Shown piece after piece: positions 31,004-37,567 of a stretch of DNA of 58,885 nucleotides (position 1 is the stretch's first letter; each line of letters begins with the position of its first letter). Location: contig JAHBWF010000032.1 in NCBI GenBank assembly GCA_019637105.1, positions 1 through 58,885 on the forward strand. The letters are read 5' to 3'. The position numbers and the translations under genes are program-made. Source of the stretch: Labilithrix sp. Its GTDB lineage: Bacteria > Myxococcota_A > Polyangia > Polyangiales > Polyangiaceae. The notes under the pieces are model-generated. The model was not told the origin of the DNA and ran no database searches. It saw only the letters and a list, made by a program, of their open reading frames with translations.

Positions 31004-31369
31004 GCGTGCCTCCTCGATGACGTCGACGAGAGACTCTCCAGATCGAGCCCGTCGCGCGTGCCCCTGCCCTCAGCACGCGACGCGCCAGCGACGGCCTCGT
31101 GCGATCTCGCGGGGATCGAAGCGCTCGGCGGGTGGCCCGGGCCAGATCGGGTCGGCCGGAGGCCGGCCGGCGCGGCGCCGGGGATCGCGCGGCCGCGTCC
31201 TCGCGCGCGGCGGTCGCGCACAGGTCCGACGCTCGGCGTCCGCGTAGGTCCGGCTGCGAAGGGCTCTCACAGGAATGAGCGCGCGTCGCGCAACGGCCGC
31301 GAGACGCCACGCGATTTCGTGTACGAGTGAAGGTGGACGGTATTTTTGCCCCGTTACTGGAGGCCCACG
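31004..31369. other. 366-nt divergent intergenic region between ssb and the fibro-slime gene
   Basis: No gene is supported. It contains a GC palindromic cluster (GGCCGGAGGCCGGCC, near 31152-31166) and, nearer the fibro-slime gene, an AT-richer stretch (GGTATTTTTGCCCC, 31339-31352) immediately before the Shine-Dalgarno sequence of that gene. It presumably carries divergent promoters, but no convincing pair of hexamers was found. Confidence 0.4.
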
Positions 31370-33055
31370 TTGCGTTTCACTCGCTCGGTTCCCCTCGCTC
31401 TCCTGGCGCTCGGCGCCGTCGTCACGTTCGCGTGCGGCGGCAACGACGGTCCCTCGCAGTTCGGCGCCTCGGAAGAAGAGACGCAGAGCGGGAACGGCCA
31501 CGACTTCGGGCCGGTCAGCCCCACCGAGACCGACGACGGCGGCGGGGGCGGCGCCTCGCCGGGGTGCGGGAACAGCGTCGTCGAGGCCGGCGAGACCTGC
31601 GACGACGGCAACACCGAGAGCGGCGACGGCTGCTCGAAGACCTGCCAGCTCGAGCCCGGCTACACCTGCGCCGCCCCCGGCACGGCCTGCGCGGCCGCAG
31701 CGTGCGGCGACGGGATCGTCGCCGGCGACGAGGACTGCGACGACGGCAACACCGCGGACGACGACGGCTGCTCGGCGATCTGCCGCCTCGAGGATGGGTT
31801 CGCTTGCCCGAACGCCGGCAAGGCCTGCGTGGCGACCGTCTGCGGCGACAACAAGAAGGAGGGCACCGAGCAATGCGACGACGGCAACACCCGCGCGTTC
31901 GACGGCTGCTCTCCGACCTGCCAGCTCGAGCCGACGTGCTCGGGCGGCACGTGCACGGCGGTCTGCGGCGACGGCCTCAAGTTCCCCGGTGAGGAGTGCG
32001 ACGACGGGAACACGCGCGACGGCGACGGCTGCTCGAAGACGTGCAAGCTCGAGCCCGGCTTCGACTGCAGCGTCGTTGTCTCCGAGCCCCCGGACGCGCT
32101 CACGCTCCCCATCGTCTACCGCGACTTCCTCCCCAACGGCTACTCCGGGACGATCCCGGCGGGCTACGGCGCGCACCCGGACTTCCAGCAGTACAACCCC
32201 GGCCTCTGCAAGGGGCTCGTCCAGAGCACGCTCGACGCCGAGAACAAGCCGGTGCTGAAGAACGGCAAGGCCTGCGACGCGGACAAGACGTGGATCACGA
32301 GCAGCGATTCGTACCGGCAGTGGTACCGCGACGGGCTCAAGAACGGGAGCAACCTCCTCGTCAACCAGCGCGTCGACGACACGCTGACGCTCGCCAAGCG
32401 GGCCGACGGCTCGTACGTCTTCGACAGCGACGAGGCTCCTTACTCCGTGGGCAAGTTCTTCCCGATCGACGCGAAGGGCTTCGGGGTCGAGAGCGGCATG
32501 CGCGACTCGTCGAACGCGGAGCGGAACTTCCACTTCACGAGCGAGTTCAAGTACTGGTTCACGTTCAAGGCCGGGAGCGCCCCGACGCTCGAGTTCCGCG
32601 GCGACGACGACGTCTGGGTGTTCATCAACAACAAGCTCGCCGTCGACATCGGCGGCGTCCACGGCGTGGTCACGGACTCCGTGACGCTTAACGCCGCGAA
32701 GGCGACCGAGCTCGGCCTCGCCGACGGCGGGATGTACGAGATCACGGTCTTCCAGGCGGAGCGCCACACGAGCGCGTCGAACTACAAGCTCTCCCTCCGC
32801 GGCTTCGAGCGCGCGCGCACCGAGTGCGTCAGCGTCTGCGGCGACGGGATCAAGACGCGCACCGAGGCGTGCGACGACGGCGCGGCGAAGAACACCGGCG
32901 GCTACGGCAAGTGCAACGCCGACTGCACGCTCGGCCCGCGCTGCGGCGACGGCGTCGTCCAGGCCCAGGAGGGCGAGGAGTGCGACGACGGCAACCTCGT
33001 CGACGGCGACTCGTGCTCGTCGAAGTGCAAGAAGCCCGCGGGCGGCCCGAAGTGA
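31370..33055 (+). CDS. Fibro-slime / DUF4215 cysteine-rich surface lipoprotein
   Basis: A 561-aa protein. The start is the TTG at 31370 (MRFTRSVPLALLALGAVVTF), chosen because CTGGAGG lies 6-7 nt upstream and the signal begins there; a lipobox-like FAC follows. After an acidic linker come four DUF4215 Myxococcus-type Cys repeats (GNSVVEAGETCDDGNTESGD; GDGIVAGDEDCDDGNT), each with CDDGN and CSKTC/CSAIC. A fibro-slime/PA14-like beta domain spans about residues 240-480, with the signature FRGDDDVWVFINNKLAVDIG. Two more DUF4215 units close the protein (CGDGVVQAQEGEECDDGN). Such proteins are surface adhesins or matrix proteins; calcium or carbohydrate binding is possible. Confidence 0.9.
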   Translation: MRFTRSVPLALLALGAVVTFACGGNDGPSQFGASEEETQSGNGHDFGPVSPTETDDGGGGGASPGCGNSVVEAGETCDDGNTESGDGCSKTCQLEPGYTCAAPGTACAAAACGDGIVAGDEDCDDGNTADDDGCSAICRLEDGFACPNAGKACVATVCGDNKKEGTEQCDDGNTRAFDGCSPTCQLEPTCSGGTCTAVCGDGLKFPGEECDDGNTRDGDGCSKTCKLEPGFDCSVVVSEPPDALTLPIVYRDFLPNGYSGTIPAGYGAHPDFQQYNPGLCKGLVQSTLDAENKPVLKNGKACDADKTWITSSDSYRQWYRDGLKNGSNLLVNQRVDDTLTLAKRADGSYVFDSDEAPYSVGKFFPIDAKGFGVESGMRDSSNAERNFHFTSEFKYWFTFKAGSAPTLEFRGDDDVWVFINNKLAVDIGGVHGVVTDSVTLNAAKATELGLADGGMYEITVFQAERHTSASNYKLSLRGFERARTECVSVCGDGIKTRTEACDDGAAKNTGGYGKCNADCTLGPRCGDGVVQAQEGEECDDGNLVDGDSCSSKCKKPAGGPK

Positions 33056-33131: not shown

Positions 33132-34616
33132 TCACATCGGCGTGCACTGCATCTCGTCGGTGCCCGTTCGCCCGCGCGGCAGCGCGCAGCGGGTGCCGTC
33201 GGGGCAGCCGGACGAGTCGGCGCACGCGATCCCGCAGACGCGCCGCGTGCTGGAGACCTGAACGCAGCGGCTGTCCGCGGCGCCGCAGTCCGCGTCGACC
33301 GCGCAGCTCGCGCCGACGCGCGACACGTCGGCGAGCGGGCTCGATCGCGGGTTGTCGTCGAGGCCGTGCACGCCGTAGACGTGGACCCACGAGCGCTCGC
33401 CGGCCGCGTTCATCTTCTCGAGGACGCTGTCCCAGGAGCGCGGGATCCACTGCCCCTCGCGCTCGTCGATGAAGGCGTGGATGAACGCGATGACCTGGTT
33501 GGCCTGCCGCTGGATGGCCGAGTAGTTGACCGTGGTGATGACGTCGGTGTTCTCGGTCGTCCGCTCCGGGTTCTCGTAGAGCTTGTCGGCGTACCCCGTG
33601 TACGTCTCGCAGCCGTTGAACAGGTAGACCTGCTGCTTGCCGGTCGTCTCGATGTTCGGGAACTCGCTCGCCGCGAGCGCGACGCGCGCTGGCTTGTAGG
33701 CGAAGACGACGCCGGAGTAGTCGAGCCGCCGACCGGCGTGGCCGTCGTAGATGACGACGTCGTCCTCCTTCATGCTCCGGCGATAGGCCTCGACGAGCGG
33801 CTGGCGAGCGTCGGGCGTGGTCATGTCGACGTGGTACATGCGCACGCGCACGTCGACCTCCTGCCCGCGCACGCGGATCTTGCCGGTGAACGGGGGCGAG
33901 TCGATCGCCAGGTCCTCGAAGCGCGCCACCGGCGAGCGGAAGCCGGACGCCACGAGGTCGGCGTAGATCGAGCGGGCGTGGCTGATGTCCATCGGCGGAT
34001 CGTGGTGGTCGCCGCCGACGTGGACGCCGATGTCGAGGCCGTCCTCGAACAGCTCGAGGTACTTCGGGTAGGCGTTGCGGCTCCGCTCGACCGGCGTGAG
34101 GAACACCTGGAGCGGCTCGCTCCCCGCGCCGAGATCGGCGGAGACCGGGAGGTACGCGCGTCCGTCCTCCGTGCTCGCGAGCGGCAGCTTGCGCTCGAGT
34201 CCCTCGACCGCGCCGAACTCGCCGCTCACGGTCATCGTGAACCGATCGCCGGCGGGCTGGAGATCGCTGTAGCTCGCGCTGGCCTGGCGGAACTGGATCG
34301 CCACGCCGGCGCGCGACAGGCGCTCGGCCTGCGGCCAGATGCGATCGAGCTCGGCGCTGATGGCCGCGGTGACGGAGTTGCGGAGCGCCGCGGCGCGATC
34401 GAGGACGGCGCGCTCTCGCTCCTCGCCCTCGAGGCCCTCGGCGCTCCGCGGCGCGTCGAAGGTCACCGTGGTCGAGAGGACGAACTCCTGGCCGGCGGTG
34501 CTCCGGTAGTTGATCTCGGAGTCGGCGTTGTCGGTCGCCTCGTCGTCGACCGCGCAGGCGGTCAGGAGGGCGGCGGGGAGCGCGAGGGCGAGCGAGAGGC
34601 GGCGCCAGGAGGACAT
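33132..34616 (-). CDS. Lipoprotein with a putative clan CD (gingipain/caspase-like) His-Cys arrangement
   Basis: A 494-aa lipoprotein (lipobox LLTAC, Cys21). The N-terminal 170 residues are uncharacterised. The segment from about 175 to 385 looks like a Rossmann-type caspase-like fold. A hydrophobic strand ends in DGHAG (DDVVIYDGHAGRR, His293). About 40 residues later a second strand ends in NGC (VYLFNGCETYTGYAD, Cys336). The helix QVIAFIHAFIDE comes after that. Clan CD peptidases place their catalytic His and Cys in this order and spacing. The C-terminal 60 residues hold eight Cys (from about 438 to 491) in a knot-like pattern. No family was recognised directly, so the peptidase call is inference. 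Confidence 0.72.
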   Translation of the reverse strand: MSSWRRLSLALALPAALLTACAVDDEATDNADSEINYRSTAGQEFVLSTTVTFDAPRSAEGLEGEERERAVLDRAAALRNSVTAAISAELDRIWPQAERLSRAGVAIQFRQASASYSDLQPAGDRFTMTVSGEFGAVEGLERKLPLASTEDGRAYLPVSADLGAGSEPLQVFLTPVERSRNAYPKYLELFEDGLDIGVHVGGDHHDPPMDISHARSIYADLVASGFRSPVARFEDLAIDSPPFTGKIRVRGQEVDVRVRMYHVDMTTPDARQPLVEAYRRSMKEDDVVIYDGHAGRRLDYSGVVFAYKPARVALAASEFPNIETTGKQQVYLFNGCETYTGYADKLYENPERTTENTDVITTVNYSAIQRQANQVIAFIHAFIDEREGQWIPRSWDSVLEKMNAAGERSWVHVYGVHGLDDNPRSSPLADVSRVGASCAVDADCGAADSRCVQVSSTRRVCGIACADSSGCPDGTRCALPRGRTGTDEMQCTPM

Positions 34617-34830: not shown

Positions 34831-35139
34831 TCACTCGAACGGCTCGGGCTCCACGTCGGAGGACAGCCAGTCCTCGTCGACCTCGATGAGCTCGAGCACG
34901 TCGATCGCGCGCGCGGACGCGCGCTCCCTGCGCGGAGGCGGATCGTGCGCGGCGTCGGGGTCGAGCTCGCCGCGCGCGATCGCGATGAGCCGCGCGTCGA
35001 TCTTCTCCATGCGCCGCGTCCGGCGCGTCGTGTACGCCGAGCGCGCGAGCGGCGCCCGCGCCGGTCGCTCGGACGTCTCCTCCTCGTCCAGCTCCCAGGC
35101 GAGGTCCGCTACCGAGATTGCCTTCTTCGCCGTTCGCAT
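34831..35139 (-). CDS. Small conserved-looking acidic protein, unknown
   Basis: A 102-aa protein from the ATG at 35139 (MRTAKKAISVADLAWELDEE). It has a basic first part (TTRRTRRMEKIDARLIAIAR) and an acidic end (IDVLELIEVDEDWLSSDVEP). There is no signal, membrane segment or known domain. The longer upstream reading is Arg-rich and has no better start. Its codon use matches its neighbours, so it is probably real, but the call rests on composition only. Confidence 0.5.
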   Translation of the reverse strand: MRTAKKAISVADLAWELDEEETSERPARAPLARSAYTTRRTRRMEKIDARLIAIARGELDPDAAHDPPPRRERASARAIDVLELIEVDEDWLSSDVEPEPFE

Positions 35140-35269
35140 CGCCGTTCGTGTCCTCCTGTCCTCCTCAACGGCGCCGCGCTCCACGACTTGAGCCGCTCCC
35201 GCGCGGCGCGCTCCCGGGCTCCGCGCTCCGCGCTTCGAGCGGCTCGGGCGAGTGGTACGCTCGTGGGCG

Positions 35270-37567
35270 ATGGACCGCGCCGCCACGGGAGCTCAGCCGC
35301 CGCTCGAACCCCAGCCGCCGGAGGTCCACGAGCCGGCCACGGTGGCCGGGGGCGTGGGCGCCGTGTACCAGACCACGCGCCAGGTGAAGCACCACCTCGG
35401 CGTGGTGCGCGGCGCGCGGACGCTCCTCCTCACGAACCAGATCGAGGGGTTCGACTGTCCCGGCTGCGCCTGGCCGGAGCCCCAGGACCACCGCTCGTCG
35501 TTCGAGTTCTGCGAGAACGGCGCCAAGGCGGTGGCCTCGGAGGCCACGACCCGGCGCGTGACGCCGGCGTTCTTCGCCGAGCGCGGCGTGGAGGAGCTGG
35601 CGCGGCAGTCGGACTTCTGGCTCAACGAGCAGGGCCGGTTGACCCACCCGATGGTGCTCCGCCCCGGCGCCGCGCGCTACGAGCCGATCGCGTGGGACGA
35701 CGCGTTCGCGCTGATCGCCGGCGAGCTCCGCGCGCTCGGGTCGGCCGACGAGGCCGCGTTCTACACGTCCGGGCGCACGAGCAACGAGGCCGCGTTCCTC
35801 TACCAGCTCTTCGTTCGCCGCTTCGGCACGAACAACCTGCCCGACTGCTCGAACATGTGCCACGAGTCGAGCGGCTCCGGCATGGACGCGTCCCTCGGCG
35901 TCGGCAAGGGCACGGTCACGCTCGAGGACTTCGAGCTCGCGGACGCGATCTTCATCGTCGGCCAGAACCCGGGGACGAACCACCCGCGCATGCTGTCGAC
36001 GCTGCGCGACGCGCGCCGGCGCGGCTGCGCGATCGTCGTGGTCAACCCGCTGGCCGAGGCCGGCTCCACCCGCTTCGCCCACCCGCAGGATCCGGTCGAC
36101 GTCCTCGGCGGCTCGACCGAGATCGGCAGCCTCCTCCTCCAGGTGAGGATCAACGGCGACGCGGCGGTCTTCAAGGGCATCATGAAGGCGATGCTCGCGC
36201 GCGAGGCCGCCGCGCCGGGCACGGTGCTCGATCGCGCGTTCATCGAGGAGCACACCGACGGCTTCGAGGCGTTCGCGCGCTCGCTCGACGACGTGAGCTG
36301 GGAGGAGATCGTCCGCGAGAGCGGCGTCCCGCGCGAGGCGATCGAGCGCGCCGCGCGGGTCGCGTGGGAGGCGGAGCGCACGATCGTGTGCTGGGCGATG
36401 GGGATCACCCAACACAAGAACGGCGTGGCCAACGTCCAGGAGATCGTCAACTTCCTGCTCCTCCGCGGCAACGTCGGCAAGCCCGGCGCCGGCGCGTGCC
36501 CCGTCCGCGGCCACAGCAACGTCCAGGGGGACCGCACGATGGGCGTCTGGGAGAAGGTGCCCGACGCGTTCCTCGATCGCCTCGGCGCGGAGTTCGGCTT
36601 CGAGCCGCCGCGCGCGCACGGGCGCGACACCGTCGACACGATCCGCGGGATGCTCTCCGGTGAGGTGAAGGTCTTCTTCGGGCTCGGCGGGAACTTCCTC
36701 TCCGCCACCCCGGACACCGAGCGCACCGCCGACGCGCTCCGCCGCTGCCGCCTGACGGTGAACGTCTCGACGAAGCTGAACCGCGGTCACCTCGTCACCG
36801 GCCGCACCTCGCTCATCCTGCCGTGCCTCGCGCGCTCGGAGGTCGACGTGCAGCCCGGCGGCGAGCAGTTCGTCACGGTCGAGAACTCGATGAGCGTCGT
36901 CAGCATGTCGCGCGGGCGGCTCCCGCCGGCCTCGGACGAGCTCCGGAGCGAGGTCGCGATCGTCGCGGGCGTCGCTCGAGCGACCCTCGGCGACGCGTCG
37001 GGCATCGACTGGACCGGCCTCGCGTCGAGCTACGACGCGATCCGCGACGCGGTCGCGCGGGTCGTCCCCGGCTTCACGGACTACAACGCCCGCGTCCGCG
37101 AGCCGGGCGGCTTCTACCTCGGCAACCCCGTCCGGCAGCGCGTCTTCCGGACGGCGACCGGGAAGGCGCGCTTCGCCGTGCACCCGCTGCCGAAGCACGA
37201 TCTCGCGCCGGGGCGGCTCCTCCTGATGACGATGCGCAGCCACGACCAGTACAACACGACGGTCTACGGGCTCGACGATCGCTACCGCGGCATCAAGAAC
37301 GGACGCCGCGTCGTGTTCATGAACGCCGACGATCTCGCGGCGCGCGGCCTCGCGAAGGGCGACCTCGTCGACATCACGAGCCACGCGCCCGACGGCGAGC
37401 GCGTCGCGCCGCGCTTCATGGTCGTGCCGTACGCGATCCCGCGCGGCTGCGCGGGGGCCTACTTCCCGGAGGCCAACGTCCTGGTCCCGCTCGACAGCGT
37501 CGCCGACGTCAGCAACACGCCCACGTCGAAGTCGATCGTCGTCAGCGTCGCCCGCTCGACCTCGTGA
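35270..37567 (+). CDS. FdhF/YdeP-type molybdopterin oxidoreductase
   Basis: A 765-aa molybdopterin-dependent oxidoreductase of the YdeP/FdhF-like group. I start it at the ATG at 35270. The N-terminal iron-sulfur/cofactor segment reads GFDCPGCAWPEP with a further Cys in FEFCENGAKAVA. Then come AAFYTSGRTSNEAAFLYQLF, NLPDCSNMCHESSGSGM (residues at the Mo site), FIVGQNPGTNHPRML, GACPVRGHSNVQGDRTMG and a C-terminal MGD-binding domain (HDQYNTTVYGLDDRYRG; KGDLVDITSH). Members include acid-resistance and formate-dehydrogenase-like proteins, and the substrate is not established. It has no Tat signal, so it is cytoplasmic. No fdhD or electron-transfer subunit is adjacent. Confidence 0.93.
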   Translation: MDRAATGAQPPLEPQPPEVHEPATVAGGVGAVYQTTRQVKHHLGVVRGARTLLLTNQIEGFDCPGCAWPEPQDHRSSFEFCENGAKAVASEATTRRVTPAFFAERGVEELARQSDFWLNEQGRLTHPMVLRPGAARYEPIAWDDAFALIAGELRALGSADEAAFYTSGRTSNEAAFLYQLFVRRFGTNNLPDCSNMCHESSGSGMDASLGVGKGTVTLEDFELADAIFIVGQNPGTNHPRMLSTLRDARRRGCAIVVVNPLAEAGSTRFAHPQDPVDVLGGSTEIGSLLLQVRINGDAAVFKGIMKAMLAREAAAPGTVLDRAFIEEHTDGFEAFARSLDDVSWEEIVRESGVPREAIERAARVAWEAERTIVCWAMGITQHKNGVANVQEIVNFLLLRGNVGKPGAGACPVRGHSNVQGDRTMGVWEKVPDAFLDRLGAEFGFEPPRAHGRDTVDTIRGMLSGEVKVFFGLGGNFLSATPDTERTADALRRCRLTVNVSTKLNRGHLVTGRTSLILPCLARSEVDVQPGGEQFVTVENSMSVVSMSRGRLPPASDELRSEVAIVAGVARATLGDASGIDWTGLASSYDAIRDAVARVVPGFTDYNARVREPGGFYLGNPVRQRVFRTATGKARFAVHPLPKHDLAPGRLLLMTMRSHDQYNTTVYGLDDRYRGIKNGRRVVFMNADDLAARGLAKGDLVDITSHAPDGERVAPRFMVVPYAIPRGCAGAYFPEANVLVPLDSVADVSNTPTSKSIVVSVARSTS

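Follow-up and report, generated by a model that had tools for sequence, protein, structure and literature searches.

We sought to determine what kind of protein is encoded on the minus strand at 33132-34616 of a 58,885-nucleotide stretch of Labilithrix sp. DNA (hereafter the window), and whether a histidine and a cysteine in it form a catalytic pair of the type used by clan CD peptidases. An initial annotation, made from the letters of the window, had described a lipid-anchored protein with a clan-CD-like His/Cys pair, and this description is borne out by the lipobox LLTAC with Cys21, by conservation of the pair and by covariation. The open reading frame encodes 494 amino acids from its ATG and begins with a signal peptide and lipobox cysteine, the features by which a bacterial lipoprotein is recognized. 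The lipidation cysteine is kept in all 36 rows that have a residue at this position in a 40-row family alignment, and an acidic linker follows Cys21 ahead of the N-terminal region. The two strands originally read as ending in DGHAG (His293) and NGC (Cys336) were placed correctly, in residue numbers and in coordinates: His293 lies within VVIYDGHAGRR and Cys336 within VYLFNGCETYTGYAD, 43 residues further on. The features of the gene are as follows.

33132-34616, minus strand: whole open reading frame, a 494-residue lipoprotein with a clan-CD-like domain, from the sequence and its relatives.
34554-34616, minus strand: signal peptide and lipobox LLTAC (residues 17-21), with Cys21 (codon 34554-34556) as the likely lipidation site and Ala at +2, from sequence and alignment.
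34122-34553, minus strand: N-terminal region, residues 22-165, with no Pfam match.
33333-34121, minus strand: core domain, residues 166-428, from the family alignment and covariation.
34011-34037, minus strand: predicted strand 1, residues 194-202, pairing in parallel with strand 2 and, less strongly, with strand 3, from covariation.
33738-33740, minus strand: codon of His293, the proposed catalytic histidine, which ends strand 3 (GH[AS]), present in 182/182 relatives and aligned to the C25 and CHAT histidine.
33609-33611, minus strand: codon of Cys336, the proposed nucleophile, which ends strand 4 (NGC), present in 182/182 relatives and aligned to the C25 and CHAT cysteine.
33348-33365, minus strand: G418...D421-N422-P423 motif ending predicted strand 6, from conservation and a low-threshold C25 alignment.
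33135-33329, minus strand: C-terminal eight-Cys module, residues 430-494, from the cysteine count.

Library searches placed the protein in no named family. Against Pfam the whole protein had two hits, at E 0.053 and 0.24, which lie far below the cut-off and are at chance level, and NCBIfam gave none. Its N-terminal region, first described as an uncharacterised domain, indeed has no Pfam match at E up to 0.001 over its roughly 145 residues (about 165 with the signal peptide); it is possibly a linker or a pro- or regulatory domain. The C-terminal part does contain the eight cysteines first noted there, with no Pfam match at E up to 0.1, and a single-sequence query with this module found no other in the window's genome at E up to 0.01. 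Searches of PDB sequences with phmmer and a 39-row profile returned nothing significant, and direct homology to a PDB sequence was rejected, the matches being at E 0.23 or worse. A role in anti-phage defence was likewise dropped, since none of five proteins had a PADLOC match at E up to 0.1.

Relatives of the protein are numerous within its phylum. As a single query it retrieved five relatives from the same genus at 62-97% identity and further ones within the order at about 29-44%. With a 14-row profile, 89 of 145 genomes from the order gave matches, at most 10 candidates being scored in each; weak matches in this count may reflect the signal peptide or the Cys-rich tail. A profile restricted to the core found matches in 107 of 377 genomes sampled evenly across the Myxococcota (no more than six candidates were scored in each), and positive genomes had one to seven among the matches listed. 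No family match was found on plasmids, nor on viral contigs in the scans that were completed. The window's own genome holds three family matches at E up to 0.001. One paralogue (L048, G000:C99, 1168-2880, minus strand) has the same GHAG/NGC pair; the second (L047, G000:C46, 1114-2592, plus strand) has Ala before Cys (NACDTF), the usual clan CD form. Family copies lie adjacent or head to head in three genomes (G008:C330:3169-5741, L041 and G141:C820), suggesting local duplication, and both matches on G008:C330 contain an in-frame TGA. Because His and Cys are retained, in a caspase-type placement, by every relative compared, and the family has no name in the searched libraries, we consider the protein probably a membrane-anchored protease of a new family.

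Clan CD includes caspases, gingipains, separase and toxin self-cleaving domains, and MEROPS counted eight families in 2025, according to the accessible portion of PMC12445089. In the available parts of two accounts, a glycine is described as adjacent to the catalytic histidine (PMC4357240) or, more specifically, as preceding it (PMC12445089), and a C11 motif quoted in the latter has the His-Gly form, with Gly after His. If His293 and Cys336 were a catalytic pair, then they should rank among the most conserved positions of the family, as the initial annotation had proposed to check. We aligned 182 distinct cores, 62 from fetched loci and 120 from other listed matches; these are the stronger matches, which favours conservation. 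Left out were repeats of the same gene, a weak match lacking the motif (L014) and two matches at E 0.27 (L049) and E 0.64 (L050). One gene cut by the end of its stretch (L041:3235-4524), in which the His is present and the Cys region missing, was counted in the 40- and 62-row sets and not among the 182. The expectation held: Gly292, His293 and Cys336 are each invariant in 182/182 cores, with His preceding Cys throughout, and Gly418 is invariant in 181/181. The next most kept positions are Gly201 (179/182), Asp421 and Asn422 (165/181 each), Gly335 (165/182) and Asp286 (164/182). Already in the first 40 rows, Gly292 and His293 were found in 40/40 and Cys336 in 39/39 where the region was present. 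Gln329, by comparison, was kept in 39/39 rows of the first set and 62/62 of the second, and in only 131/182 of the larger one. Core identity to the window protein drops to 19% within the 62-row set, where 38 rows have His and Cys 43 residues apart and the remaining 24 have a spacing of 29-42.

The residues flanking the pair are also restricted. Gly stands directly before His in every core, and the residue after it is Ala (97) or Ser (85) and never Gly, so that the His-Gly form, which is common in clan CD and not defining, occurs in 0/182. Before Cys stands Gly in 165 cores, Ser in 13 and Ala in 4. Because both His293 and Cys336 are invariant in 182/182 distinct relatives, the dyad is more than a chance arrangement. 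The same count bears on the pseudoenzyme first offered as an alternative, and equally on a binding protein, in either of which His and Cys would have a structural role. Such proteins have a precedent in the pseudo-orthocaspases of bacteria, as reported in the accessible part of PMC6426788, but those have the His and Cys replaced, and here not one of 182 members lacks either residue. We therefore consider a pseudoenzyme very improbable. Overall, the window protein looks like one that works as a clan CD enzyme.

Membership of clan CD is decided by fold, and we examined the sheet topology of the core by covariation. A template-free mean-field coupling analysis was run on the 182 rows (Neff 115, 230 columns), and the pairings of six hydrophobic segments were scored as 15 segment pairs in two orientations, giving 30 tests. 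The strand segments follow the hydrophobic pattern but were set down after the coupling list had been seen; an all-against-all scan was independent of them. The five top-ranked of the 30 pairings were exactly those of caspases, namely strands 1-2, 3-4, 1-3 and 4-5 parallel and strands 5-6 antiparallel. The fraction of about 2,100 random segment pairs that reached the same score was 0.0005 for 1-2, 0.0014 for 3-4, 0.0043 for 5-6, 0.0124 for 1-3 and 0.028 for 4-5, and after correction for 30 tests only 1-2 and 3-4 remained below 0.05. In the all-against-all scan they again take the first two places, among 40,578 diagonals, with 3-4 second. Column shuffles gave maxima of 1.20, 1.25, 1.44 and 1.67, which are clearly exceeded by 1-2 (2.27) and 3-4 (2.21) and barely by 5-6 (1.70) and 1-3 (1.69), while 4-5 (1.49) lies below the highest of them. 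Three of four parameter sets gave the same top five; in the remaining one, 4-5 dropped to sixth place behind a parallel 3-6 pairing. When 75% of the rows were subsampled 12 times, all five pairings were retained in two subsamples and four in the other ten, with 3-4 in the top five in 11/12 and 4-5 in 6/12. The pairing of strands is thus clear for 1-2 and 3-4, and the others are indicated by rank only.

In the 3-4 pairing, position 288 pairs with 331 in parallel, an offset of 43 that equals the offset between His and Cys, and His293 and Cys336 therefore end neighbouring strands at the same level. In this arrangement, derived from covariation and not from a structure, strand 3 ends with His and the parallel strand 4 with Cys, which is where the available part of PMC4357240 places the clan CD residues; the same source describes the caspase sheet as 2-1-3-4-5-6 with a reversed strand 6, and gives the core of this order for clan CD. 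AlphaFold2 models of the window protein, alone or with its near-identical relative L002, were of low confidence (mean pLDDT 33.8 and 33.5), and both put a strand ending at His293. The 2-1-3-4-5 order is also found in flavodoxin-like folds, and the sheet alone is therefore not unique to clan CD. A flavodoxin-like alpha/beta protein outside the clan could have converged on a His and a Cys at its strand ends, and its parallel order would then be what we observe. An antiparallel sixth strand, though weakly indicated, speaks against such a fold.

We also compared the family profile with those of known families. Domains were collected from genomes of the same order for C25 (16), CHAT (12), C14 (12) and C11 (15), together with two control sets, alpha/beta hydrolases (16) and short-chain dehydrogenases (15). 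In hhalign the 62-row family profile scored 30.7 against C25 and 31.6 against CHAT, with both His and Cys in register. Scores were 20.8 against C14 and 20.9 against C11 (His aligned, Cys not), and 20.4 and 14.9 against the alpha/beta-hydrolase and short-chain-dehydrogenase controls. Column shuffles, 30 each, reached at most 18.8 for C25 and 17.9 for CHAT. The hhalign probabilities were low, however (13% for C25 and 20% for CHAT), and alpha/beta hydrolase against C11, a control pair of unrelated families, gave 29.1; values near 30 are therefore no proof of kinship. When the four G-H and G-C columns were masked, the scores fell to 13.5 for C25 and 14.9 for CHAT, which is background level. The likeness is thus confined to the two motifs, no homology over the whole domain is shown, and we rejected profile similarity as proof of homology. 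Masking the same motifs in known pairs lowered C25-C14, an accepted relationship, from 32.1 to 16.9 and left C25-CHAT at 32.9 and C14-CHAT at 24.5. This absence of wider similarity after masking is what a flavodoxin-like protein would also give. Against it stands the agreement with C25 in the two motifs, in the distance between them (42 in C25 and 43 in the window protein) and in a Gly-Asp-Pro-like ending, and we consider convergence from outside the clan improbable.

Across 39 members scanned against Pfam, a single one (L029) matched C25 (PF01364) at E up to 1, with E 0.0044 and 16.7 bits against a cut-off of 23; the match spans residues 140-194 and includes both its His (150) and its Cys (192). 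None of the 23 other family names listed at E up to 1 for these members is named as a peptidase, and PF00656 (C14), PF12770 (CHAT) and PF03415 (C11) matched 0/39 at this threshold. NCBIfam gave two matches among family members, one member each, at E 0.0097 and 0.047 and with unrelated names. On the basis of the respective Pfam models, the protein cannot be assigned to C25, C14, C11 or CHAT. As for the distribution of these known domains, C25 (gingipain-type) domains (L051-L080) occur in 24 of 115 sampled genomes of the order, three weak ones included, and the window's own genome also encodes C14, CHAT and C11 domains by Pfam (L095, L106 and L186).

The architecture of the relatives fits that of exported proteins. 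Of 62 members, 43 have a lipobox-like pattern ahead of the core; the others have unclear starts, are cut or were missed by the pattern. In 46 of the 62 the core is followed by a tail of 40 or more residues that includes six or more cysteines. Among seven long tails scanned, LTD (Lamin Tail Domain) was over the Pfam cut-off in six (L032, L033, L133, L145, L149 and L152) and below it in one; the LTD comes after the Cys-rich stretch. In L048, the paralogue from the window's own genome, the protein ends in a PPC (pre-peptidase C-terminal) domain (E 5.6e-10), which takes its name from secreted peptidases. These tails, together with the lipobox, fit a predicted exported protein acting at the surface. 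A dyad universal in 182 cores, set beside the lack of any peptidase-named model reaching cut-off in 39 members, would suit a caspase-fold protein that is not a peptidase and instead uses a thiol acyl intermediate for transpeptidation, amidation or another transfer at the cell surface, and the Gly, not Ala, before Cys in 165/182 is in keeping with this. Known clan CD enzymes with such an arrangement are peptidases, however, going by the accessible part of PMC4357240, and the PPC domain of the paralogue points in the same direction. We regard a transferase of this kind as unlikely, if less so than a flavodoxin-like protein.

We next considered the genes around the family member. In the window, a PA14/fibro-slime protein with PA14 and five DUF4215 stretches is encoded at 31346-33055 on the plus strand, between the family gene and the SSB gene, and its convergent position had prompted the suggestion that the lipoprotein processes surface proteins. 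A 17-kb stretch around the 97%-identical sister copy (L002) retains seven of eight other window genes tested, namely SSB, molybdopterin oxidoreductase, ABC transporter, dehydrogenase, DUF924, TPR and a small ORF, and lacks the fibro-slime gene. Around six orthologues at 62-71% identity, in fetched stretches of 4-18 kb, none of the eight tested window genes was present. Since the fibro-slime gene is missing at the sister locus and in the orthologue stretches, it is not a conserved partner, and the suggestion of surface-protein processing drawn from it was abandoned as a lead. A tblastn search for this gene in 16 stretches matched only in L160 and L165, and a second scan of 16 stretches, the window included, found a fibro-slime-like gene in three; in the window it adjoins the family member, and in the other two it lies at distances of about 3 and 6 kb from it. 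One other gene group recurs, with seven ORFs in five of 16 stretches, and one member has a kinase-like glycine loop by eye. A small ORF of the window at 34831-35286 (minus strand) has no Pfam match and is about 80% identical over 119 residues in L002.

Our preferred reading is that the window protein is an exported, lipid-anchored cysteine peptidase of clan CD type with a caspase/haemoglobinase-type sheet, which we consider probable from the sequence evidence. In this mechanism, Cys336, which ends strand 4, would be activated by His293, which ends strand 3, and would then attack the peptide bond that follows a specific residue. The stretch joining lipid anchor and core may serve as linker or prodomain, and the Cys-rich tail may form an outer module held together by disulfides. 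What the sequences themselves show is the conservation, the spacing of the motifs, the export signal and, clearly for 1-2 and 3-4, the pairing of strands by covariation; that the protein cleaves peptides, lies at the surface and has such specificity is what we infer. Myxococcota are known for predatory, multicellular bacteria. With somewhat less assurance, we favour the broader view that the whole family is a new clan CD family frequent in this phylum, a lipid-anchored caspase-type surface protease, always of the GH[AS] form, that would act outside the cell on prey, kin or matrix proteins. The candidate family is unnamed in Pfam, NCBIfam and PADLOC for the members scanned, is present in 107/377 sampled genomes of the phylum on exported lipoproteins, and offers a testable dyad in His293/Cys336. 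A literature search that covered mostly non-subscription papers found none pairing clan CD or caspase-like proteins with Myxococcota. One survey of caspase homologues in bacteria was built on the C14 model, by the available part of its text (PMC3501461), and that model matches 0/39 of the members scanned here. The caspase-domain conflict systems of multicellular bacteria are described as regulated multi-gene systems in the accessible parts of PMC7159879 and PMC8195603, where no description of the present lipoprotein family was found.

How does the family compare with its closest known counterparts? CHAT (PF12770) gave the highest profile score, 31.6, with both catalytic positions aligned, and its set has ACETG where the window protein has GCETYTG; CHAT domains are as a rule cytoplasmic and TPR-linked. 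C14 (caspase/metacaspase, PF00656) is alike in the sheet order that covariation indicates, and in a low-threshold alignment over strand 1-helix 1 and both catalytic positions, but its profile score of 20.8 was no better than that of the alpha/beta-hydrolase control (20.4). Separase (family C50) has a Gly before its catalytic Cys and a GHG-type histidine motif, and the family resembles it in the Gly that mostly precedes Cys and in its GH histidine motif. The gingipain family C25 (PF01364) differs in several respects: the core before the His is about 127 residues in our family and 214 in C25, the window family has a lipid anchor and a Cys-rich tail, and no member of 39 is over the PF01364 cut-off. 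The agreements with C25 lie in and around the catalytic positions. Gly precedes His in 16/16 of the C25 set as in 182/182 of the family, Cys follows His by 42 residues in C25 and 43 in the window protein, and a Gly-Asp-Pro-like motif follows Cys by 85 and 82 residues, the C25 ending YNLLGDP falling on the family's YGVHGxDDNP in an extended low-threshold alignment. After His, C25 has Gly in 13 domains, Ser in 2 and Ala in 1 (n=16), and the family has Ala or Ser in all 182. Since three of 16 C25 domains carry Ser or Ala at this position, the GH[AS] form of the family also occurs within C25.
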